From assembly GCA_016281125.1 (NCBI GenBank), contig JAEEIA010000020.1, positions 1 through 38,039 of the forward strand: 38,039 bases of DNA, read 5' to 3'. Shown one piece after another: positions 6,972 through 38,039 of this stretch. A model generated the notes under the pieces. That model worked only from the letters and a program-made list of their open reading frames with translations. It was not told where the DNA came from and ran no database searches. The stretch is from Oscillospiraceae bacterium (lineage in GTDB: Bacteria > Bacillota > Clostridia > Oscillospirales > Ruminococcaceae). Made by a program: the position numbers and the translations under genes. How positions within the stretch are numbered: position 1 is the stretch's first letter; each line of letters begins with the position of its first letter.

Positions 6972-7805
6972 TCAGTAAATGAGGTAGCTGTAATTGCCGG
7001 TCATTCTGCCTTCGCTGTTGTTCATGAAAACGCCGAATGCATCGCGCCAGGTGATCTGCCAGTCGCCGTCGATATCGGCAGCTGCCATCTGGACGTTATA
7101 ATATGCGCCCGGGAAGCTGTATGCGTTGTAATGGTTGCTGAGCCAGGTGACATCCGCGCTGTCAACGACGGAGTCGCCGTTCGCGTCGCCTTCCTTGACC
7201 GGACGGACAACATAATCGACGGTAAAGACAGTGCCGTCAGAGAGGCGTCTGAGCTTGTTGGGGCCGAACTTGACATAACCGGAATTCCAGTTGACGCGGC
7301 CGTTCACCAGCTCGCTGCCGTCGATGGTGTAATCCGTATATACGCAGGTGACGAAAATTGCATGCTTCTGACCGCTGCTGCTGGTCATGACGATCTGGTC
7401 GCCGTTCTTTGCGGTGGTGACGTCATCGACCGTGGAGGCGGGCTGCTCGGTGAAATAGAGGTGCTCATTGCCATAGTTGCTGATTGCGAGGTGTCTTGCC
7501 CATGCGAGCGGAGCCGGGAGCGTCTGACCCTCACTGATGCCGCTGAGGTTGGTGGTGGAATAGCCCGGACCGAATACCTTGCCCTGGCGGACTGTCTGCG
7601 ACCACTGGCTGTTCTGCGGGTAGTTGTAGACAGACCAGTAATAGAGGTTGTGGCCGAAGTTCATGCCGAATTCGGTGGAATCCTGGGTGTTGCCGGAAAC
7701 GGGATGCGCGGGTGTGGTTGCGGATGCTGTGACTGCCTGCATAACGCAGACGGCGGTGATTGCAGCGCAGAATGCAGCTGCGGCTCTTGATGCGATGTGT
7801 TTCAT
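6972..7805 (-). CDS. Secreted dockerin-like protein of unknown activity
   Basis: 277 residues. The start is ATG 7805 with GAGGTG (complement of 7814-7819) upstream. It has a Sec signal (MKHIASRAAAAFCAAITAV..., cleavage near TASA). The mature part has no domain I can name with certainty. A segment GDQIVMTSSSGQKHAIFVTCV resembles the His-bearing strand of CHAP/NlpC-type amidases, but I do not see a convincing catalytic Cys, so no activity is assigned. The C-terminal third has a dockerin-like pair of calcium loops, GDANGDSVVDSADVTWLSNH and ADIDGDWQITWRDAFGVF. This suggests non-covalent attachment to a cohesin-bearing scaffold. It is similar in plan to the upstream gene at 8101-9033 and is transcribed from its own promoter. 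Confidence 0.75.
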   Translation of the reverse strand: MKHIASRAAAAFCAAITAVCVMQAVTASATTPAHPVSGNTQDSTEFGMNFGHNLYYWSVYNYPQNSQWSQTVRQGKVFGPGYSTTNLSGISEGQTLPAPLAWARHLAISNYGNEHLYFTEQPASTVDDVTTAKNGDQIVMTSSSGQKHAIFVTCVYTDYTIDGSELVNGRVNWNSGYVKFGPNKLRRLSDGTVFTVDYVVRPVKEGDANGDSVVDSADVTWLSNHYNAYSFPGAYYNVQMAAADIDGDWQITWRDAFGVFMNNSEGRMTGNYSYLIY

Positions 7806-21545: not shown

Positions 21546-22868
21546 ATGACCCGAATGACCAGAACCACCCTACAAAAGCTCGCGGCCGCTGCGGCAGCAC
21601 TCTGTATGATGAGCGTCTGCACCGGATGCGGCAACACCGGCAGCAGCACGCCCTCTGCCGATACCCCCGAGCAGTCCTCCGAACCGCCGGCAGAGCCGCA
21701 GGTGTTCACCGAGAACATCACCGGCACGCAGGACGGCTATGACTATGAGCTGTGGAAGGATGAGGGCACGACGTCCTTCACGGTCGATCCGACCGGCGGC
21801 ACCTTCTCCTGCGAGTGGAGCGACATCAACAATGCGCTGTTCCGCCGCGGCAAGAAGTATGACTGCACGATGACCTATCCGGAGCTCGGCAATATCACCG
21901 TTGATTACGGCGTGGACTATCAGCCGGTCGGCAACTCCTATATGTGCGTTTACGGCTGGACGAGAGAACCGCTGATCGAATACTATATCGTCGAATCCTG
22001 GGGCTCCTGGCGTCCGCCCGGGGCACCGTTTGCAATCGGCACCGTGACCGTGGACGGCGCGGTATACGATATTTATAAGACAACCCGTTACGAGCAGCCG
22101 TCCATCGACGACACCCAGACCTTTGACCAGTACTGGAGCGTCCGGCGCACAAAGCCGCAGGGCGACGGCACCAAGCTGGAGGGCACAATCTCCGTTTCCA
22201 AGCACTTTGACGCATGGAAGAAGTGCGGTCTGGAGCTCGGCAAAATGTACGAGGTTGCGCTGACGATTGAGGGCTATCAGTCGCAGGGCAAGGCCACGGT
22301 CTATAAGAATGATCTCAACGTCGGCGGCACCTATGCGGAAGCAACCGATATTGAGGTGACGGTTGATGAGGAAGCAATCGCAAAGCTGGCGAGCACCGAA
22401 ACCGGTACGCCGGAGGATGTGGGCTTCTTTGAAACCAGCTTCGAGAACGGCACCGAGGGCTGGATCCCGCGCGGCGGCTCGATTGTCATGACGGACAGCG
22501 ACAATGCTTCTGACGGTTCGCAGTCTTTGTTTGTCAGCGGCAGAACCGATTACTGGAACGGCGCGACGGTCATGCTCAGCAGCGATACGTATAAGGCGGG
22601 TGAGTCGTACCATTTCAAGGCGAAGGTCATGCAGAAGAGCGGTGAGGACATCACCATGAAGATGACGCTGCAATATGATCTGGACGGCGAAAAGTACGAT
22701 CAGATTGCACTGGAGCCTGCACCGAACGGCGAGTGGATTACGCTGGAGAATCTGGCGTATATGATTCCGGAGGGTGCGGAGAATCTTCAGCTGTATGTGG
22801 AGTCTCCGGACAGCCTGACCGATTTCTACGTAGACGAGGTTTCCGGCGGCGAGCGCGCCGACGGGTAA
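21546..22868 (+). CDS. GH11 endo-1,4-beta-xylanase lipoprotein with C-terminal CBM22-like domain
   Basis: 440 residues. ATG 21546 is used; ATG 21555, three codons on, fits the spacing from GAGG better and is equally possible. The signal peptide ends in a lipobox-like CTGC (Cys28), followed by a Ser/Pro/Glu linker to about residue 52. A GH11 catalytic domain spans about 55-255. The nucleophile is Glu145 in [15 protein letters not shown] and the acid/base is Glu242 in [11 protein letters not shown], both in family-defining contexts. After a short linker, about 300-436 is a CBM22/CBM4_9-type jelly roll ([31 protein letters not shown]). It should cut xylan while tethered to the cell membrane rather than to a cellulosome, since it lacks a dockerin. 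Confidence 0.92.
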
Positions 22869-26092: not shown

Positions 26093-26101
26093 GCAAAAAC
26101 A

Positions 26102-26130
26102 AAGGCACCGGCTGAATCGGCCGGTGCCTT
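26102..26130 (-). terminator. Terminator of the radical SAM operon
   Basis: AAGGCACCGGC (26102-26112) pairs with GCCGGTGCCTT (26120-26130). On the minus strand it is followed by TTGTTTTTG. Confidence 0.88.
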
Positions 26131-26165
26131 TTGCATCCCTGTATTTAACGCTGCCTGTTCCGTGA

Positions 26166-27239
26166 TCAGAACAGAATATCCTTGAAGCAGACCTGCGGGC
26201 AGTTGTTGTCGAAATCCCAGGTGTGGTATGCATCGCCGTGACAGAACTTCTGCTCGCTGCAATTCCGGCATTTTTCGCAGTCCTGGCTGAGGTCGCGCCG
26301 GAAAATTTTGAATCCGTTTTCCCAGACGTCCTTGAAATTATCCTTCAGGATATTGCCCTGAATGAACTCGGGACGGCGCTCGATGTCCAGACATGCGGTG
26401 ATGTCGCCGTTGACCATGATGCTTGCGGTATACAGTCCTGCGGTGCAGAGAAAATACCAATCTCTGACCTCGCGCTCGTACTCCATGCCGAGGTAGTGGC
26501 TGCATCCGTAGCAGACCGGCTCACCGGCAATGCGCTTGTTCCGGATGAACTCGAACAGATACTGATAGTCCTCCTTGGTCAGCAGCAGCTCGGGGTGCAG
26601 CTTGGCTCTGCCGATCGGATCCATATTGACCACGCGCCACGAATCAATCTCCACATTCTTGAGAATATCGTAGAGCGCGTCCAGCTCCCTGATGCTCTTG
26701 TGCGAGCAGACCGTCGTGACCTGCACTGCCTGAAATCCGCCGACACGCAGCAGATTCATGACGCCGTCCATGGCCTTTTTCCAGCCGCCCGGCGTTCTGC
26801 GGAACGCATCATGCGTTTCCGGCAGGCCGTCCAGACTGATCGAGATCGTGCCCATGCCGACCTCTTTCAGCTTTTTGGCGACCTCCTCGGTGATGAGCGT
26901 GCCGTTGCTCGTCATACCCCATTTGAAGCCGAGTTCATGCGCAAAGCCCATGATTTCAAAGAACTCCTTGCGCAGCAGCGGCTCGCCGCCGGTGATGCAG
27001 AGCATATAGCCGTCGGTACCCATGTCCTTTTTGAGCTGCGTCAGAAATTCCTTGTACTGCTCCAGCGAAAGCTCGTCGGAGGGGACGTCGCCCGCGCTGC
27101 TGCCGCAGTGCAGACATCGTTCGTTGCAGCGGAGCGTCAGCTCAAGAAACAGATTCTTGAGCTGCGGCATCGCTTTCAGACCTTCGCGGTAGACCGCAAG
27201 GCGCTTCATACTGTCTTCTTTCATTGCCGGATTGAGCAT
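26166..27239 (-). CDS. Radical SAM/SPASM enzyme, putative maturase of the adjacent YGPP proteins
   Basis: 357 residues, ATG 27239 with AGGAGA 7 bases upstream. The radical SAM cluster motif C38-x3-C42-x2-C45 lies in LTLRCNERCLHCGSS, followed by the GGEPLL glycine motif and ISLDGLPETHD. The C-terminal part is SPASM-like: CTAG...ITACLDIERRPEFIQGN, then the dense set CEKCRNCSEQKFC and a final NNCPQVC, enough for auxiliary iron-sulphur clusters. Such enzymes modify peptides or proteins through a 5'-deoxyadenosyl radical in the cytosol. It is the last gene of a six-gene operon, 24 bases after the stop of an exported YGPP protein. Those five proteins are its natural candidate substrates. The chemistry is unknown; substrates almost free of Cys argue against thioether formation at the motif. 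A role as sulfatase maturase is less likely because no sulfatase is nearby. Confidence 0.88.
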   Translation of the reverse strand: MLNPAMKEDSMKRLAVYREGLKAMPQLKNLFLELTLRCNERCLHCGSSAGDVPSDELSLEQYKEFLTQLKKDMGTDGYMLCITGGEPLLRKEFFEIMGFAHELGFKWGMTSNGTLITEEVAKKLKEVGMGTISISLDGLPETHDAFRRTPGGWKKAMDGVMNLLRVGGFQAVQVTTVCSHKSIRELDALYDILKNVEIDSWRVVNMDPIGRAKLHPELLLTKEDYQYLFEFIRNKRIAGEPVCYGCSHYLGMEYEREVRDWYFLCTAGLYTASIMVNGDITACLDIERRPEFIQGNILKDNFKDVWENGFKIFRRDLSQDCEKCRNCSEQKFCHGDAYHTWDFDNNCPQVCFKDILF

Positions 27240-27263
27240 AATTTTTCTCCTGTGATATGAATT

Positions 27264-28055
27264 TTAGGATACGGAGTTTCCGTCCGCTTCACCGACGGTT
27301 TCCGTTTTGGTTGTTTTCTCGTTCTGTCTTTTATTCTCACTGAGAGCGGAAAAGACAGACTCCATCTCCGCCGTGTCCCGGATCAGATCCCAGTCGCCGG
27401 TACGGGGCGGGCCGTACAGTGCGACGGCGCCGGTATCGGTAAACGGGAGCAGACCGGTGATCAGCCCCTCTGTTTCGCGCGTGCTGCGCGTATGCATGGT
27501 GCGGCGCGTTGCGATTGTGGTGCCGTCCGGAACGGTTGTGCCCGGCACGGTCGTGGTTACGGCGGGTTCCTGCTTCGGGATGCCGAGCCGTTCCTCTATG
27601 AAGATGCGCACATCCTCTTTGTCCAGGACGCCGTCCAAATTGACGTCTGCCAGGTGCGCAGCGTACGAATTCTGCGGATCCATGCCCTCAAGGACAGCGT
27701 TCTTGATGTACGAAAGGTCACGGGCATCCGCTCTTCCGTCCCAGTTTGTATCACCCGCGAATGCGACGGGCGGCGGGCCGTACACCGGCACCGGAACGGT
27801 ATTCGTTGTTTCGGTATAGGTTGTGCCTTTGGCCGTTTGCGTCCTTCCGGTTCTTCTGGTTCGCACGGTCGTTTCTTCCGGCGGTTCCGTCGTAAACATG
27901 GACGGCGGGCCGTAGACCACGGCCATGCCGGTTTCAATTTCTGCAATCGGATCGTCAAGTGCCCGCACGGGCTGCTGCATCCGGGACTGCGCCGAGCTGC
28001 CGAGTGCGGTCGCAAAGATCGCAGCCGTCAGGAGCGTCTGCGCTGTTTTCTTCAT
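27264..28055 (-). CDS. Exported YGPP/dockerin-like protein 5 (three YGPP motifs)
   Basis: 263 residues. ATG 28055 follows AAAAGGAG; an in-frame ATG at 28088 lacks a ribosome site. The signal is MKKTAQTLLTAAIFATALG, cleavage near SSAQS. YGPP motifs lie at residues 48-51 (VVYGPPSMF), 92-95 (PVYGPPPVAF) and 214-217 (ALYGPPRTG). A dockerin-like domain at about 101-160 begins GDTNWDGRADARDLSYIK, with a second loop ADVNLDGVLDKEDVRIF. Thr/Arg-rich linkers separate the parts, and a charged tail of about 45 residues follows the last motif. There is no Cys. It is the fifth gene of the operon, directly before the radical SAM gene. I infer that it is a modified, exported protein, perhaps docked on the cell surface. 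Confidence 0.85.
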   Translation of the reverse strand: MKKTAQTLLTAAIFATALGSSAQSRMQQPVRALDDPIAEIETGMAVVYGPPSMFTTEPPEETTVRTRRTGRTQTAKGTTYTETTNTVPVPVYGPPPVAFAGDTNWDGRADARDLSYIKNAVLEGMDPQNSYAAHLADVNLDGVLDKEDVRIFIEERLGIPKQEPAVTTTVPGTTVPDGTTIATRRTMHTRSTRETEGLITGLLPFTDTGAVALYGPPRTGDWDLIRDTAEMESVFSALSENKRQNEKTTKTETVGEADGNSVS

Positions 28056-28134
28056 AAGAGCATCTCCTTTTCTGCCGTGAAACCGCACCGTTGCGGTGCT
28101 CAGAAATCAGACGGTTTCTGCCGGAGCCTCCTGC

Positions 28135-28833
28135 TTATTGCAGCATGGAGGGCGGGCCGTAAAGCACAACCGGAATATCCGTATCCCGCGTGGTTTCAGG
28201 CGGCGCTGTCATTTCGCTGATCGTGGTGACAGGCGGCGGGCCGTAGATCGGAAATGTGACCACCGTTGTTGTGGTGAGGAGCGTGGTCATATCTGCGGAA
28301 GTCGTGACGGCAGGCGTTGTTGTGACTGCCTCCTCCTTCTTCGGAATGCCGAGCGTTTCCTCCATGAAGACGCGGACATCCTCTTTGTCCACATCGCCGT
28401 CATGATTGACGTCTGCCATGTCATACCAGCCGTCGAACTGATCTCTGCCTGCCATTGCAGCGCGCTTGATGAGCGTCAGATCGCGGGCATCTGCGATTGC
28501 GTCCCAGTTCATATCGCCCGAAAAAGCGGTGCGCGGCGGGCCGTAGGCCGGCTCCGGAATGAGATCCGTGGTAACCGGAACCTCCGGCCAGTCAGGATAT
28601 GCCGGAATACTTGCAACAAACTGGTTTGTTGTGGTATAGGTTGTTGTGTCTGTGGTTTCCTCTGATGTCGGCTGCGTCGGCGGCGGGCCGTAAACCCCCG
28701 CGTAATTTGTCTGAAGATCAACGATCGGATCGTTTGCTGCCTGAACGGGCTGCCGCATCTGCGACTGCGCCGAGCTTCCGAGCGCCGTTGCAAAGATCGC
28801 AGCTGTCAGGATGGTTTGCGCTGTTCTTTTCAT
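28135..28833 (-). CDS. Exported YGPP/dockerin-like protein 4 (four YGPP motifs)
   Basis: 232 residues, ATG 28833 with AAAGGA 10 bases upstream. The signal MKRTAQTILTAAIFATALG is nearly identical to proteins 3 and 5. YGPP motifs lie at residues 48-51, 97-100, 197-200 and 225-228; the last is four residues from the C-terminus (VLYGPPSMLQ). The dockerin-like domain at about 106-165 has GDMNWDAIADARDLTLIK and ADVNHDGDVDKEDVRVF, then LGIPKKEE. Linkers are Thr-rich. There is no Cys in the protein. It carries the most motif copies of the five and the shortest non-motif sequence, so it looks most like a multi-site precursor. Confidence 0.85.
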   Translation of the reverse strand: MKRTAQTILTAAIFATALGSSAQSQMRQPVQAANDPIVDLQTNYAGVYGPPPTQPTSEETTDTTTYTTTNQFVASIPAYPDWPEVPVTTDLIPEPAYGPPRTAFSGDMNWDAIADARDLTLIKRAAMAGRDQFDGWYDMADVNHDGDVDKEDVRVFMEETLGIPKKEEAVTTTPAVTTSADMTTLLTTTTVVTFPIYGPPPVTTISEMTAPPETTRDTDIPVVLYGPPSMLQ

Positions 28834-28881
28834 CAAATGTTCGTCCTTTCCCTCAGAATCTCCGTGCTGCGGCAGGTTCCG

Positions 28882-29946
28882 TTAATCCATCATCGGAGGC
28901 GGGCCGTAAAGGAGCATGACCGTTGTTTCCGTTGTGGTTTCCAGGCTGCTGACAATGTCGGGATCCTCATCCGGGCTTGTGGTGACGGTCGTGGTCGTGA
29001 CGGGTTCTTCTTTCTTCGGGATGCCGAGCGTTTCCTCCATGAAGATGCGGACATCCTCCTTGTCCACTTCGCCGTCATGGTTGACGTCAGCGATGTTCCG
29101 CTCCATGTAACCGGTGTTTCTCGCGGGGTTCAGTGCCAGCTGCTTGATGAGCGAAAGGTCGCGTGCGTCGGTGACATTGTCCATGTTGACGTCACCCGTC
29201 GGATAGAAGACCCACGGCGGGCCGTAAAGTACCACGGGCGTTGTCTGATACGGATCGTCATCCGGCCGCATGGTCGTTGTCTGATACGGCTCGTCATCCG
29301 GTCTGGTGCCGGTCGCAATTCTGTTGCTGTCCGTCAGATAAACAGCCGTTCTGAGGACTGAGCCGTTTGCAAAATCCGAGAGCGAATCGCCCGAAACGGG
29401 TGCTTCGCTGCGGCCGCCGTAAAGCGCGAAGGTGTAGTTTTCCGGCATATTTTTGATCCGGATGCCGTAGGTGATACTGCCGAATGCATCCCACCGTTCA
29501 AATTCGTATTTCAGCTTTGAGATTGCGACCTTCGTTTTTTCGGAGGTGTTCCATGTCAAAATAACCTCGCCGGTCTGCTTGTTGAAGAATTCGCATTCCA
29601 GACCCGGCACATTCTCATTGGTGTCGATGTCCAGCACGGAAAGCTGAAGACTGTATGTGCCGGTCAGCGGGAGCTCCGAAAGATCGAGTGCGGTGGTCGT
29701 CGTTCCTGCTTCCTCATCGACGGTGGTCGTTTGGGTGGTCGCGGTTTTCTGCCGCTCCTCCTCAAGGCTGGAGAGTACCCACGGCGGGCCGTAAAGCGGC
29801 GGTACGGTCGTGGTGGTCAGGGAAGTGGTCGTGTCCGCATTCCTGGCTGCCGCATAGGCCACTCCTGTGCTTGCATTGGCTGCCGAATTGCCGAGTGCCG
29901 TTGCGAACATCGCGGCGGTCAGCAGCGTCTGCGCTGTCTTTTTCAT
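28882..29946 (-). CDS. Exported YGPP/dockerin-like protein 3 with a beta-sandwich insert
   Basis: 354 residues, ATG 29946 after AAAGGATGA. It has the signal MKKTAQTLLTAAMFATALG. YGPP motifs lie at 52-55 (PLYGPPWVL), 241-244 (VLYGPPWVF) and 347-350 (LLYGPPPMMD, at the very end). A degenerate YGGR at 176-179 sits inside the insert. Residues about 90-215 look like a Cna-B/prealbumin-type beta-sandwich (SLQLSVLDIDTNENVPGLE, YGIRIKNMPENYTF). The dockerin-like domain at about 251-312 has GDVNMDNVTDARDLSLIK and ADVNHDGEVDKEDVRIF. A 136-base gap with three hairpins separates it from gene 2. It has a single Cys, in the insert. Confidence 0.85.
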   Translation of the reverse strand: MKKTAQTLLTAAMFATALGNSAANASTGVAYAAARNADTTTSLTTTTVPPLYGPPWVLSSLEEERQKTATTQTTTVDEEAGTTTTALDLSELPLTGTYSLQLSVLDIDTNENVPGLECEFFNKQTGEVILTWNTSEKTKVAISKLKYEFERWDAFGSITYGIRIKNMPENYTFALYGGRSEAPVSGDSLSDFANGSVLRTAVYLTDSNRIATGTRPDDEPYQTTTMRPDDDPYQTTPVVLYGPPWVFYPTGDVNMDNVTDARDLSLIKQLALNPARNTGYMERNIADVNHDGEVDKEDVRIFMEETLGIPKKEEPVTTTTVTTSPDEDPDIVSSLETTTETTVMLLYGPPPMMD

Positions 29947-29972
29947 GTTCAGATCATCCTTTCCGTCTTTTT

Positions 29973-30065
29973 GCTCCCGCGCCTGAAAGCGGGAGCGTAT
30001 GTGATTCTGCGCCCTGGCCGCGGGCGCGCGGATTTACCCGTTTGCCTGAATTTTCAGCGTCAGGC
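29973..30065 (-). other. Three hairpins in the gap between YGPP genes 2 and 3
   Basis: On the transcribed strand three stems follow one another: GCCTGA/TCAGGC (30044-30065), GCGCCC/GGGCGC (30009-30027) and GCTCCCGC/GCGGGAGC (29973-29996). None is followed by T on the minus strand, so they are not terminators; they may be processing or stability elements that set different expression of the two operon halves. Confidence 0.5.
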
Positions 30066-30082
30066 GGCGCTTTCTGTGTCGG

Positions 30083-31021
30083 TTACGGTTCTTCCTCCGG
30101 TTCGGTCGGATCGTTTTCCTGATATTCCCGGTCGAATGCCTCGGCGAGTAAGTCGATCTGCTCGACGGTGTACTCCGGGTCTTCGATATCCTGCCGCGGT
30201 TCAAACTGTGCGCCGGATATACAGGTTCCGGTCGTCATATTGTATTCAACGATGCCTTTGTCAAAAAACGTAATATTCCCCTGCTCGTCAGCGGAGCATG
30301 TCTGATAGGAATACTCGAATGCAAAGCGGTCGGGCAGCGCCGATTCTTCATCGGCGGCCGTATCCTCCCAGATCCGTTCAAATGTGATCAGCGCTTTTCT
30401 GACAACGCCGGTATTGTTTGGCAGTTCTGCGAAATGATCCAGCCGGATCTGCACGGGGTCGCCCGGCATCAGGGATACATAGTCTTTTTCCGTCCATTCC
30501 GAGGAATCCGTTTTGACCGTGACACTGTAAGGAACAGTAAGCTGCTTGTTCAGCTCGTATACCCGTTTCATTTTTTCATCCCGGCTCAGTTTTTCTGCTT
30601 CTGCGGGATCATACGCAACCGGATACACAAACAAGTTGAAAGTAGTCGGGAGCTCTGCGCCGGTCATGCGGTTCAGCATTGCACGGACATCCGCCTTTGA
30701 GAACTTCTGGTCGTTATTGAAATCCTTCACGCCGCTGTAATCGGCTTGGCCGAAGGCGAGATGCCGGAGCTGCATGACGTCCGCATCATCACGGGAAAAC
30801 ATCAGTTCCCGCTTCATCAGTGTCACGTCACGCGCATCCAGAATGTTGTTCTTGTCCAGATCGCCGACCTTGTCCATGACCGGCGGCGGGCCGTAAAGCA
30901 CCATGGCGACCTGCTGATCCGCCGGGGAGAATGCCGCTTCAGCGGAATTTCCGCCGACGGCCGTGCTGATTGCCGCCGCAAACAGTGCAGCGGTCAGGCG
31001 TGTCTGTTTTGAATGCTTCAT
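30083..31021 (-). CDS. Exported YGPP/dockerin-like protein 2 (one YGPP motif)
   Basis: 312 residues, ATG 31021 after AAAGGGTGA. The signal MKHSKQTRLTAALFAAAIS is cleaved near SAEA. One motif lies at 43-46 (MVLYGPPPVMDKV), leading directly into a dockerin-like first loop GDLDKNNILDARDVTLMK. The second loop is weaker (VKDFNNDQKFSKADVRAML). From about residue 120 there is a domain of about 190 residues without a known family name, including FNLFVYPVAYDPAEAEKL and NITFFDKGIVEYNMTTGT. It is related to the C-terminal domain of protein 1. It has two Cys, both far from the motif. It is the second gene of the operon, 28 bases after gene 1. Confidence 0.82.
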   Translation of the reverse strand: MKHSKQTRLTAALFAAAISTAVGGNSAEAAFSPADQQVAMVLYGPPPVMDKVGDLDKNNILDARDVTLMKRELMFSRDDADVMQLRHLAFGQADYSGVKDFNNDQKFSKADVRAMLNRMTGAELPTTFNLFVYPVAYDPAEAEKLSRDEKMKRVYELNKQLTVPYSVTVKTDSSEWTEKDYVSLMPGDPVQIRLDHFAELPNNTGVVRKALITFERIWEDTAADEESALPDRFAFEYSYQTCSADEQGNITFFDKGIVEYNMTTGTCISGAQFEPRQDIEDPEYTVEQIDLLAEAFDREYQENDPTEPEEEP

Positions 31022-31049
31022 AATATGTCACCCTTTCGTTCGGGATATG

Positions 31050-32009
31050 TCATTCCGGGAGATTCTGTTCCGGTGTCAGGCATTCATGCATCCGGAATTC
31101 TCCGGTGTTGACGTCCCATTCAATCAGGAGCTTGTCAAAATACTCTTCTTGCCCGTCCGCATAGCGGGTATAGGTCGGGAAGCTGCTGTGGTATTCGCAG
31201 AGCGACATCATCGGTGCAGGCAGTCCGTCATCCGAATCCTCGCTGTCCCCGCTGATGACCGCCGTCAGAGGCTGATCCTCAAAGGGCATGGACAGCGTGA
31301 TTTCCGTCCGGTGCTGACACACCGCGCCGGTTTCATCCGCGCCGTCATCAAAGAATGTATTGGGCGCAAAGCCGTCCGGCACCTTCATCCGATAGATCCT
31401 TTCCAGCGCGGAGCCCCAGAACGGTTGCTCTCCGCTTTCCAGGTCATAGGGCAGGAGCTTCTTATTCTGCTGTTCCGGCGTGAGAGAATAAACAAATTCA
31501 GGCGCAGGGGCATCGTTCCGGTCAAGATAGTTTTCGATCCGCCTGAGCCGGAGATTTGCCTCCTCTGTCAGTCTGAACCGTTCTTCCATGACCTCCGGCA
31601 CTGCATCTGAGAAATACGGAACCGGTCTGAAATACAGTGTGAAGCTGACGGGACGTTTGTTTTCTGCATCGGCCTCGCCGGTCAGATGCTGCATCAGAGC
31701 GCGGGCGTCCGCGCCGTCGTCGTCCGTGTCAAAGAGGAAATCGGCTGTATAGGAGTAGTTTTCCGCGCCTTTCAGAAGCCGCTGCTTGATCAGCGACAGA
31801 TCGCGGGCATCGAGCACCTTGTCACCGTTGAGATCGCCGCTGACGGGCTTTTCAAAATCCGGGCCCGGGCCGTAAAGAATCTGCATGGTTCTCTGATCGG
31901 TCGCGGCCAGATAGACGGATGCATCCACAGGGACGGTTCCGCCCGCGGAAATGCCGAGTGCCGCCGCGAATACCGCAGCGGTCATGGCTGTCTTTGCGTC
32001 CTTTTTCAT
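31050..32009 (-). CDS. Exported YGPG/dockerin-like protein 1, first gene of the operon
   Basis: 319 residues. The start is ATG 32009 with GGGGAGGA 8 bases upstream; a longer frame to 32114 begins inside the promoter and is excluded. The signal is MKKDAKTAMTAAVFAAALG, cleavage near VDASV. The motif is variant, YGPG at 46-49 (QILYGPGPDFEKP), at the same distance from the N-terminus as in the others. A dockerin-like loop GDLNGDKVLDARDLSLIK follows; the second loop is shortened (FDTDDDGADARALMQHL). A large C-terminal domain (FTLYFRPVPYFSDAVPE, EYFDKLLIEWDVNTGEF) is related to that of protein 2. A promoter and a 5' leader of about 70 bases precede it. Confidence 0.82.
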   Translation of the reverse strand: MKKDAKTAMTAAVFAAALGISAGGTVPVDASVYLAATDQRTMQILYGPGPDFEKPVSGDLNGDKVLDARDLSLIKQRLLKGAENYSYTADFLFDTDDDGADARALMQHLTGEADAENKRPVSFTLYFRPVPYFSDAVPEVMEERFRLTEEANLRLRRIENYLDRNDAPAPEFVYSLTPEQQNKKLLPYDLESGEQPFWGSALERIYRMKVPDGFAPNTFFDDGADETGAVCQHRTEITLSMPFEDQPLTAVISGDSEDSDDGLPAPMMSLCEYHSSFPTYTRYADGQEEYFDKLLIEWDVNTGEFRMHECLTPEQNLPE

Positions 32010-32085
32010 CTGATTGTCCTCCCCTGATTCTGTCGGAGTGAAGCCGCTGCCGAATGCATCGGGCTTCACATAGCTATACACTTTA

Positions 32086-32114
32086 ATTATAACAGATTCC
32101 AAGCGGAATGTCAA
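32086..32114 (-). promoter_or_regulatory. Promoter of the YGPP/radical SAM operon
   Basis: Minus strand TTGACA (32114-32109), 17-base spacer, TATAAT (32091-32086): a perfect consensus pair. It is the only such promoter I see for the six genes, whose gaps are otherwise 24-136 bases. Confidence 0.92.
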
Positions 32115-37920: not shown

Positions 37921-38039
37921 TTTTTTAAGAGTTTGATCCTGGCTCAGGACGAACGCTGGCGGCACGCTTAACACATGCAAGTCGAACGGAGTTAGATTGG
38001 AGCTTGCTTTGATCTAACTTAGTGGCGGACGGGTGAGTA
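37921..38039 (+). rRNA. rrs: 16S ribosomal RNA (5' end, truncated by the window edge)
   Basis: AGAGTTTGATCCTGGCTCAG at 37928-37947 is the universal 16S 5' sequence, followed by GACGAACGCTGGCGGC and ACATGCAAGTCGAACGGAG. The mature 5' end is placed about 7 bases before the AGAGTTTG by analogy with Escherichia coli. Only the first about 119 bases are present. Confidence 0.98.

Follow-up and report, generated by a model that had tools for sequence, protein, structure and literature searches.

The operon and its products

The window analysed is a 38,039-nucleotide stretch of DNA from a rumen Oscillospiraceae bacterium of Ruminococcus type (contig JAEEIA010000020.1). On its minus strand, at 26166–32114, lies an operon in which a promoter is followed by genes for five exported paralogues, a radical SAM/SPASM enzyme gene and a terminator (Table 1). 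A first-pass annotation had described one promoter, five Sec-exported paralogous proteins, the enzyme as last gene and a terminator after it, and all of these were found where it had placed them. The scan for such signals is expected to yield about three promoter-like and about eight terminator-like sites by chance; the two that bracket the genes are the strongest of its sites. Intergenic gaps range from 24 to 136 bases, each gene is preceded by a Shine-Dalgarno-like sequence, and no additional gene is present between promoter and terminator. Gene 1 most likely begins at the ATG at 32009, which has the Shine-Dalgarno-like GGGGAGGA upstream; the TTG at 32114 belongs to the −35 box.

Table 1. 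Genes and signals of the operon, in order of transcription
Feature	Position	Strand	Properties
Promoter	32086..32114	-	Sigma-70 TTGACA-17-TATAAT, 12/12 consensus, TG ahead of -10; single strong operon promoter
Gene 1, 319 aa	31050..32009	-	Signal peptide; degenerate LYGPG at residue 46, shortly ahead of dockerin 31683-31838; C-terminal domain without assignment
Gene 2, 312 aa	30083..31021	-	Signal peptide; LYGPPPVM ahead of weak dockerin; C-terminal domain without assignment
Gene 3, 354 aa	28882..29946	-	Signal peptide; three YGPP, one shortly ahead of dockerin 29044-29196, one C-terminal
Gene 4, 232 aa	28135..28833	-	Signal peptide; four YGPP; dockerin 28375-28518; no Cys; C-terminal YGPPSMLQ
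Gene 5, 263 aa	27264..28055	-	Signal peptide; three YGPP; dockerin 27600-27758; no Cys
Radical SAM/SPASM enzyme, 357 aa	26166..27239	-	Clade signature CxHCGS and SPASM cysteines; TIGR04133-like; putative X-Tyr-Gly splicease
Intrinsic terminator	26101..26131	-	12-pair stem, then T-run

All five exported proteins contain a type I dockerin by Pfam, four of them over the cut-off and that of gene 2 below it (16.5 vs 22.9 bits). The dockerins do not appear in the first-pass annotation. The host genome has 16 cohesin matches and at least 150 dockerin matches. No catalytic domain is recognised by Pfam in the five proteins, and a comparison with NCBIfam at E values up to 10 gave nothing meaningful. Cellulosomal dockerin proteins of Ruminococcus flavefaciens likewise combine a type I dockerin with cohesins of the same genome; the window proteins differ from them in their YGPP modules, in what appears to be a dedicated radical SAM maturase, and in having no recognised catalytic domain. 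The literature, covered in part, yielded no paper that joins radical SAM, dockerin and SPASM; an earlier description of YGPP in Ruminococcus is possible.

Exact YGPP occurs 11 times, distributed 3+4+3+1+0 when counted from the enzyme-proximal gene outward, and gene 1 has one YGPG; both counts agree with those made earlier. A YGGR had also been listed as a motif copy. Its single occurrence, ALYGGRSEAP in gene 3, falls inside an ordinary domain; it is probably no copy of the motif, and on this context it was rejected as a real site.

Association of the enzyme with the YGPP motif

The enzyme and the YGPP motif are linked. YGPP is found nearby on the same strand in 93 of 95 non-redundant enzyme loci (99 minus 4 with identical enzyme genes), as read from all same-strand frames of at least 40 aa, which may admit a wrong frame or a frameshift; the substrate at locus L110 looks like one. 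The 95 loci do not represent 95 independent events because many are from close relatives. One further locus, L204, was left out of every count, as its contig ends just upstream. The two loci with no YGPP nearby belong to genomes that encode exported YGPP-dockerin proteins elsewhere, so that the co-occurrence the first-pass annotation suggested looking for is direct in 93 loci and in trans in the two exceptions. A cruder gene picker, which drops genes under longer opposite-strand frames, detects YGPP in 77 of the 99 loci. With this picker, YGPP occurs 295 times near the enzyme, vs 9 times in total for the other 11 orders of the same letters; beyond 4 kb from the enzyme the numbers are 2 and 11.

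The first-pass annotation held that YGPP proteins commonly found without the enzyme would speak against a maturation system. In 16 enzyme-free genomes, 18 sites were found when V-Y-G-P-P only was sought, and none is in an exported YGPP-dockerin protein; the objection is not borne out in this set. It might be argued that an unrelated radical SAM gene simply neighbours a family of dockerin proteins or lipoproteins whose linkers carry a motif, given how common dockerins are in the genome. This is very improbable, and already contradicted by the 93 of 95 loci, by the near and far counts, by the two exceptions in trans and by the enzyme-free genomes.

Within 171 substrate open reading frames, one of which contains masked letters, Tyr and Gly of the motif are nearly invariant and both prolines vary. 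Near-copies of the motif have Tyr or Gly replaced in 1 case, vs about 25 expected from shuffles, and a proline replaced in 74, vs about 13 expected. The target therefore appears to be X-Tyr-Gly. The residue at −1 is Val (0.62) or Leu (0.22), with Ala, Ile and Thr also occurring, and outside YGPP there is a conserved Q at −3 and F/Y at +6. The resulting module, Q-x-[Val/Leu]-Tyr-Gly-Pro-Pro-x-x-[Phe/Tyr], is found in linkers, directly ahead of the dockerin and, in many cases, at the C-terminus. The enzyme very likely alters the Tyr-Gly of the repeated YGPP in the five exported proteins, as judged from these patterns. The earlier proposal was that the SPASM enzyme modifies Tyr or Pro of YGPP: co-occurrence bears out the motif as the target, and the proposal is narrowed here to Tyr-Gly plus the preceding residue. 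Proline modification was rejected, the prolines being the variable positions.

Perhaps YGPP is instead an unmodified recognition or binding motif, such as a docking tag for the enzyme or a ligand of a surface receptor, with the modified residue elsewhere in the substrate. The substrates are otherwise diverse, and the conserved Q and F/Y resemble a binding site. However, substrates carry up to six copies each and some are short and hold little else, which points to a target, and invariant Tyr-Gly with tolerant prolines suits a reaction centre. We regard a pure binding role as unlikely.

Relatives of the enzyme and of its substrates

The enzyme passes the Pfam cut-offs for PF04055 and PF13186, and Pfam finds no RRE domain in it. 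Its AlphaFold model (pLDDT 89.7) has SPASM proteins among its PDB matches, with SkfB (6efn, TM 0.67) as the top fold match. TIGR04133 is the best of 76 families at 261.1 bits, below its curated cut-off of 425; scores are also below the cut-off for the mycofactocin family TIGR03962 (135 bits, cut-off 265) and TIGR04103 (117.8 bits, curated cut-off 725). One collection yielded 528 relatives with E values no higher than 1e-3; the 80 that were retained share 66–97% identity with the window enzyme, and the others need not all belong to the YGPP system. Ruminococcus flavefaciens strains carry the system, with MC2020, XPD3002 and YAD2003 among the loci from this collection.

The window enzyme shares ancestry with TIGR04133 and TIGR04103 enzymes. 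Its clade is sister to TIGR04133 (support 100/99), and the two join a TIGR04103 enzyme, the enzymes of GDL peptides and those next to NHLP-type precursors in a group that excludes MftC and PqqE (99/97; 97/95 in a second tree), with outgroups on long branches in both trees. A topology that unites MftC with both the window clade and the TIGR04133 clade, an alternative named after the first tree had been seen, is rejected (AU p 0.009). Three residues, G46, T176 and W201, are shared by all 24 clade members compared, and none of the five other enzymes has them. TIGR04103 we take to be IPR026482, the family of the splicease PlpX. PlpX itself is absent from the tree, and the link to it runs via a Nostoc enzyme that is over the TIGR04103 cut-off (853 vs 725 bits) and 29% identical to the window enzyme.

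The partners of related enzymes mostly carry X-Y-G, as in CEYGSP, CYGMP, CEYGTP, LYGCP and MYGTG. The partner of the Nostoc enzyme has LYGLPPELF, and NHLP-type precursors beside related enzymes have AYGVP and AYGIA. Gly is not universal in the clade because the DUF1843/GDL branch has X-Y-[G/A/M]. In Tropicibacter, only FYGLPP was seen, within the adjacent phosphotransferase and perhaps by chance.

The closest known family of the enzyme belongs to the TIGR04133/TIGR04134 rSAM/lipoprotein system of Bacteroidota and Treponema. Its members adjoin exported proteins that have Y-G-x-P close to their N-terminus, and the window enzyme and its relatives likewise stand beside exported Y-G-x-P partners. 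The window substrates differ, however, in that they have multiple strict YGPP and dockerins and not one EYGxP or CYGxP with carboxypeptidase-regulatory-like domains. None of the five proteins matches TIGR04134 with an E value of 10 or less, in a search where HMMER filters remove most matches above 0.1. In a set of 21 relatives, of which some do not carry the enzyme, it has no match over the cut-off and two weak ones below it, both in one genome. The part of the literature covered has no mention of TIGR04133 and none of YGPP together with radical SAM.

Candidate chemistry and role

PlpX acts with a small RRE partner, PlpY. The PlpXY spliceotide splicease is, like the enzyme described here, of the radical SAM/SPASM type, with the Nostoc TIGR04103 exemplar in the same supported clade, and its X-Tyr-Gly site is also present in the window substrates and in those of relatives. 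The substrates of the system described here differ from those of PlpXY. They are dockerin proteins and lipoproteins that leave the cell through Sec and bear several sites each, with Sec signals or lipoboxes in place of an NHLP/Nif11 leader. No PlpY-type RRE gene lies beside the enzyme within the operon, where there is no room between the genes. Splicing by PlpXY is the excision of tyramine (−135.0757 Da). Published accounts of spliceases give the site as X-Tyr-Gly, with MYG and LYG as natural sites and loss of C8H9NO (PMC10533398; PMC11002830).

We favour, with a probability of roughly 0.55, a splicease-type system whose substrates are dockerin proteins and lipoproteins destined for export. 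The operon would supply surface proteins together with their own cytoplasmic maturase, and the enzyme would bind the ten-residue module ahead of Sec export and excise part of the Tyr by tyramine splicing, leaving a reactive ketone in the chain. After export, the dockerins encoded in this window may dock on the cohesins of the genome. The proteins would then present electrophilic ketoamides in arrays, on the cell surface or within the cellulosome, where a protease-inhibiting role is plausible.

Two other types of SPASM chemistry were weighed. The sactipeptide and ranthipeptide enzymes SkfB and CteB have the SPASM fold in common with the window enzyme, but two of the five window substrates (genes 4 and 5) contain no Cys. 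Cys-thioether chemistry was rejected for this reason, and the separation from such systems drawn in the first-pass annotation holds. Mycofactocin MftC, also a SPASM enzyme, decarboxylates Tyr and couples it with Val, according to a review; it acts on a C-terminal VY and is in a separate clade. Mycofactocin-type chemistry as the closest relative was rejected by the AU result.

A broader alternative is that X-Tyr-Gly undergoes some other Tyr-centred radical reaction: a C-C or ether cross-link between Val and Tyr or between Tyr and Pro, a Val-Tyr bond as in mycofactocin, epimerisation or desaturation, with a mass change of −2 Da or none. SPASM relatives such as MftC treat tyrosine in varied ways, and the GVY at the end of two MftA precursors resembles the VY of YGPP substrates. 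XYG splicing does not call for the conservation seen at Pro-Pro and at the Phe of position +6, and the strict Pro-Pro of the YGPP subfamily, unneeded by known spliceases, could mean a different chemistry. On the other side, the trees place the enzyme apart from MftC and PqqE, Val is dispensable at −1, and clade partners mostly share X-Y-G and not a terminal VY. Such a reaction seems to us possible, though rather unlikely.

If the splicease reading is right, backbone rewriting, originally described for peptides of cyanobacteria, serves surface and cellulosome-docking proteins of many rumen and gut bacteria, and the module, about 10 residues long and repeated several times per protein with no sign of a separate leader, is a compact natural tag for reactive ketones in proteins. 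It would also hint at what the TIGR04133 family does and raise the question of why a cellulosome should bear electrophiles. A bolder and more tentative extension, which we consider somewhat doubtful, is that cellulosome-forming rumen bacteria place encoded alpha-keto-beta-amino acid arrays on their cellulosomes and surface. The enzyme would be an iterative splicease acting at each VYGPP, the dockerin-positioned ketoamides with Val or Leu at P1 would trap proteases or cross-link amines, and the whole TIGR04133 group would consist of gut-bacterial protein spliceases.

In many relatives of the window system the YGPP substrates are small lipoproteins. A phage collection gave one distant match.

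Operon architecture and dockerins

Six minus-strand genes lie between a consensus promoter and a terminator. The first-pass annotation rightly read them as a single operon with a radical SAM/SPASM enzyme as last gene (PF04055, 82 bits; PF13186, 34 bits; both above cut-off) and five exported paralogues ahead of it, their signal peptides assigned by eye. Gaps between the genes, taken from coordinates, are 24 to 136 bases, and all six genes have a Shine-Dalgarno-like sequence at their start. Gene 1, the promoter-proximal gene, was listed with a TTG start that is in fact the −35 box; ATG 32009 should replace it. Counting reproduced 11 exact YGPP copies and one YGPG in the five proteins; the single YGGR described earlier is present, but as a motif copy it is probably irrelevant. 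YGPP is absent from other window ORFs of at least 60 aa.

All five proteins contain a type I dockerin, a feature missing from the first-pass annotation; four are above the Pfam cut-off and one is below it (16.5 vs 22.9 bits). Genome-wide there are 16 matches to cohesin, each above cut-off. Dockerin matches number at least 150, from 150 scored out of 308 candidates.

Features of the window and of loci from other genomes
Sequence	Coordinates	Strand	Feature
Window	32114–32086	−	Promoter, 12/12 sigma-70 consensus
Window	26166–27239	−	Radical SAM/SPASM enzyme
Window	26131–26101	−	Terminator, 12-pair stem
Window	6972–7805	−	Further exported protein (277 aa) with dockerin but neither YGPP nor a Pfam enzyme domain
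Window	21546–22868	+	GH11 xylanase with CBM4/9 domain, lipoprotein-like N-terminus
Window	37921–38039	+	Contig end inside 16S rRNA gene, 119 bases of 5′ part
L130	1124–1510	+	Nitrile-hydratase-like leader peptide (Pfam below cut-off), X-Y-G core
L131	1145–1480	+	Nitrile-hydratase-like leader peptide (Pfam below cut-off), X-Y-G core
L135	3704–3916	+	Unannotated small ORF 5′ of Agathobacter rectalis plasmid radical SAM gene; end FGPVMYGTGVRM
L142	2153–2866	+	DUF1843 protein beside GDL-type maturase, X-Y-[G/A/M] near N-terminus
L144	2028–2743	+	DUF1843 protein beside GDL-type maturase, X-Y-[G/A/M] near N-terminus
L203	993–1505, 1453–3171	+	Same-clade radical SAM/SPASM enzyme beside FHA-domain protein

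Linkage of enzyme and motif

In samples of 297 members of the family and 295 of the order, the enzyme is present in 20 and 5, respectively, the window's own genome included in both counts. With an E-value limit of 1e-3, a GTDB-based contig collection yields at least 528 relatives. The best 80 of these were kept (66–97% identical; titles include Ruminococcus flavefaciens YAD2003, MC2020, MA2007 and XPD3002) and with 19 enlarged loci gave 99 loci, or 95 once identical enzyme genes were removed, the window excluded. The proposed co-occurrence holds: same-strand YGPP lies within −6 to +4 kb of the enzyme at 93 of the 95. By a cruder count over all 99 loci, 295 YGPP are within 4 kb and 2 beyond, vs totals of 9 and 11 for 11 other arrangements of the same letters. 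The two loci lacking nearby YGPP belong to genomes G096 and G292, where VYGPP occurs elsewhere in exported dockerin proteins (L181, L195, L196; L183, L198); one further VYGPP stretch in each (L197, L199) has no YGPP ORF over 40 aa. Unlinked copies are also found in the window's own genome (a lipoprotein, L182) and in its congener G295 (three proteins, L180).

The converse, that YGPP proteins are common without the enzyme, was not borne out in a DNA search for the V-Y-G-P-P form. The 20 enzyme-bearing genomes gave 68 sites vs 33 for the backward control, and 16 enzyme-free genomes gave 18 vs 53. The latter, genomes without a match at an E-value of 1e-40 or better, were two of the same genus and 14 others from the family sample in listing order, those under about 90% complete being passed over. 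None of the 18 sites is in an exported multi-site protein of this kind; some fall in ORFs that are short or look out of frame, others are lone sites in unrelated proteins such as an ABC-transporter-like protein (L184) and one with a YG-rich N-terminus (L194).

The 171 distinct substrate ORFs contain 438 YGPP. Among one-letter departures, Tyr is replaced 0 times and Gly once (13.4 and 11.3 expected from shuffled sequences), vs 19 and 55 times for the first and second Pro (6.7 and 6.4 expected); kinship of paralogues inflates these counts, and choosing ORFs by YGPP cannot alone create the asymmetry. In the flanks, position −3 is Q at a frequency of 0.39, position −1 is Val at 0.62 or Leu at 0.22, and position +6 is Phe at 0.38. 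A second flavour in this set, PQP[E/D/K/A]YG[P/A]x, has an acidic, basic or alanine residue ahead of Tyr and is similar to Bacteroidota CEYGxP sites. Of 78 substrates that fit a crude dockerin pattern, 58 have a YGP site 2–12 residues ahead of the first calcium loop, and the last YGPP is at most 10 residues from the protein end in 95 of 170 substrates (about 33 under uniform placement). By a crude test, 60 N-termini are lipoprotein-like, 98 otherwise hydrophobic and 13 neither, some of these last being cut or mis-started.

Enzyme family and partners

The top NCBIfam match is TIGR04133 (261 bits, under the cut-off of 425). Two maximum-likelihood trees, to be read with caution for the long branches of their outgroups, both join the window clade to true TIGR04133 enzymes (100/99) and group these with Nostoc TIGR04103, GDL-peptide and Agathobacter enzymes and two beside NHLP-type precursors (99/97 and 97/95); MftC, PqqE and others lie outside. 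A post hoc alternative, chosen with the first tree already known, that places window, TIGR04133 and MftC together vs the rest was rejected (p-AU 0.009). G46 (in CxHCGS), T176 and W201 are invariant in 24/24 clade members and 0/5 others. The Nostoc enzyme scores 853 bits against TIGR04103 (cut-off 725), which we take to be IPR026482. The predicted structure (pLDDT 89.7) resembles SPASM peptide maturases, the best being SkfB (6efn, TM 0.67).

Partners of clade enzymes often contain X-Y-G, a residue followed by Tyr-Gly. Lipoproteins have PCEYGSPHAN (Parabacteroides), SCYGMPEN (Treponema) or YGPP (L201, L202), the Phocaeicola partner has CEYGTPSAD, another Clostridia family has VVYGPPEFF, and a Nostoc Nif11 precursor ends in LYGLPPELF. 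NHLP-type precursors at L131 and L130 have AYGVP and AYGIA; these peptides come from other families of Bacillota, adjoin radical SAM enzymes with open frames of 528–533 aa and are probably spliceotide precursors. The small Agathobacter ORF, with VMYGTG, is possibly a spliceotide-like precursor. At L203 the FHA protein has VLYGCP and the enzyme a C-terminal JAB/MPN-like domain (20.5 bits, slightly under the cut-off of 22.5); this is possibly an intracellular signalling variant of the X-Y-G system.

Against a uniform X-Y-G, DUF1843 partners have it near the N-terminus in only 2/3 (Azospirillum oryzae) and 1/3 (Aureibacter), the one read from Azospirillum B510 has only a mid-sequence AYGD, and in Tropicibacter only FYGLPP in an adjacent phosphotransferase was seen, perhaps by chance. 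The DUF1843 X-Y-[G/A/M] sites may be substrates of this chemistry with a relaxed sequence requirement.

Proposed reaction and role

The splicease PlpX, with PlpY, excises tyramine and leaves a ketoamide. It belongs to IPR026482 and has an RRE partner, according to one source, which describes the modification as widespread and used for protease inhibition (PMC11002830). Another gives MYG and LYG as natural sites, with a mass loss of 135.0757 Da, and reports that short tags work at some places in foreign proteins, with splicing in only two of the FtsZ constructs tested (PMC10533398). Because of homology, motif and partner logic, we infer the same excision at Tyr-Gly by the window enzyme, with a probability of roughly 0.55. 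The first rival is another Tyr-centred radical reaction at X-Tyr-Gly (cross-link, epimerisation or desaturation); splicing and this rival together make some modification of Tyr-Gly highly probable.

Spliceases, TIGR04133 lipoproteins and dockerins are already known. Their combination, in which cellulosome-docking proteins and lipoproteins carry numerous strict VYGPP modules alongside a single dedicated enzyme, was not found in the partial set of literature searched. A 2022 title by Scott et al. reportedly already mentions proteins.

The enzyme has no signal peptide visible by eye and therefore should act in the cell, before its substrates leave. If tyramine is excised, the surface would display ketoamides that have Val/Leu at P1 and are attached through a dockerin or a lipid anchor. 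Spliceotide products are described as protease inhibitors in PMC11117315, and by that precedent surface ketoamides might act likewise.
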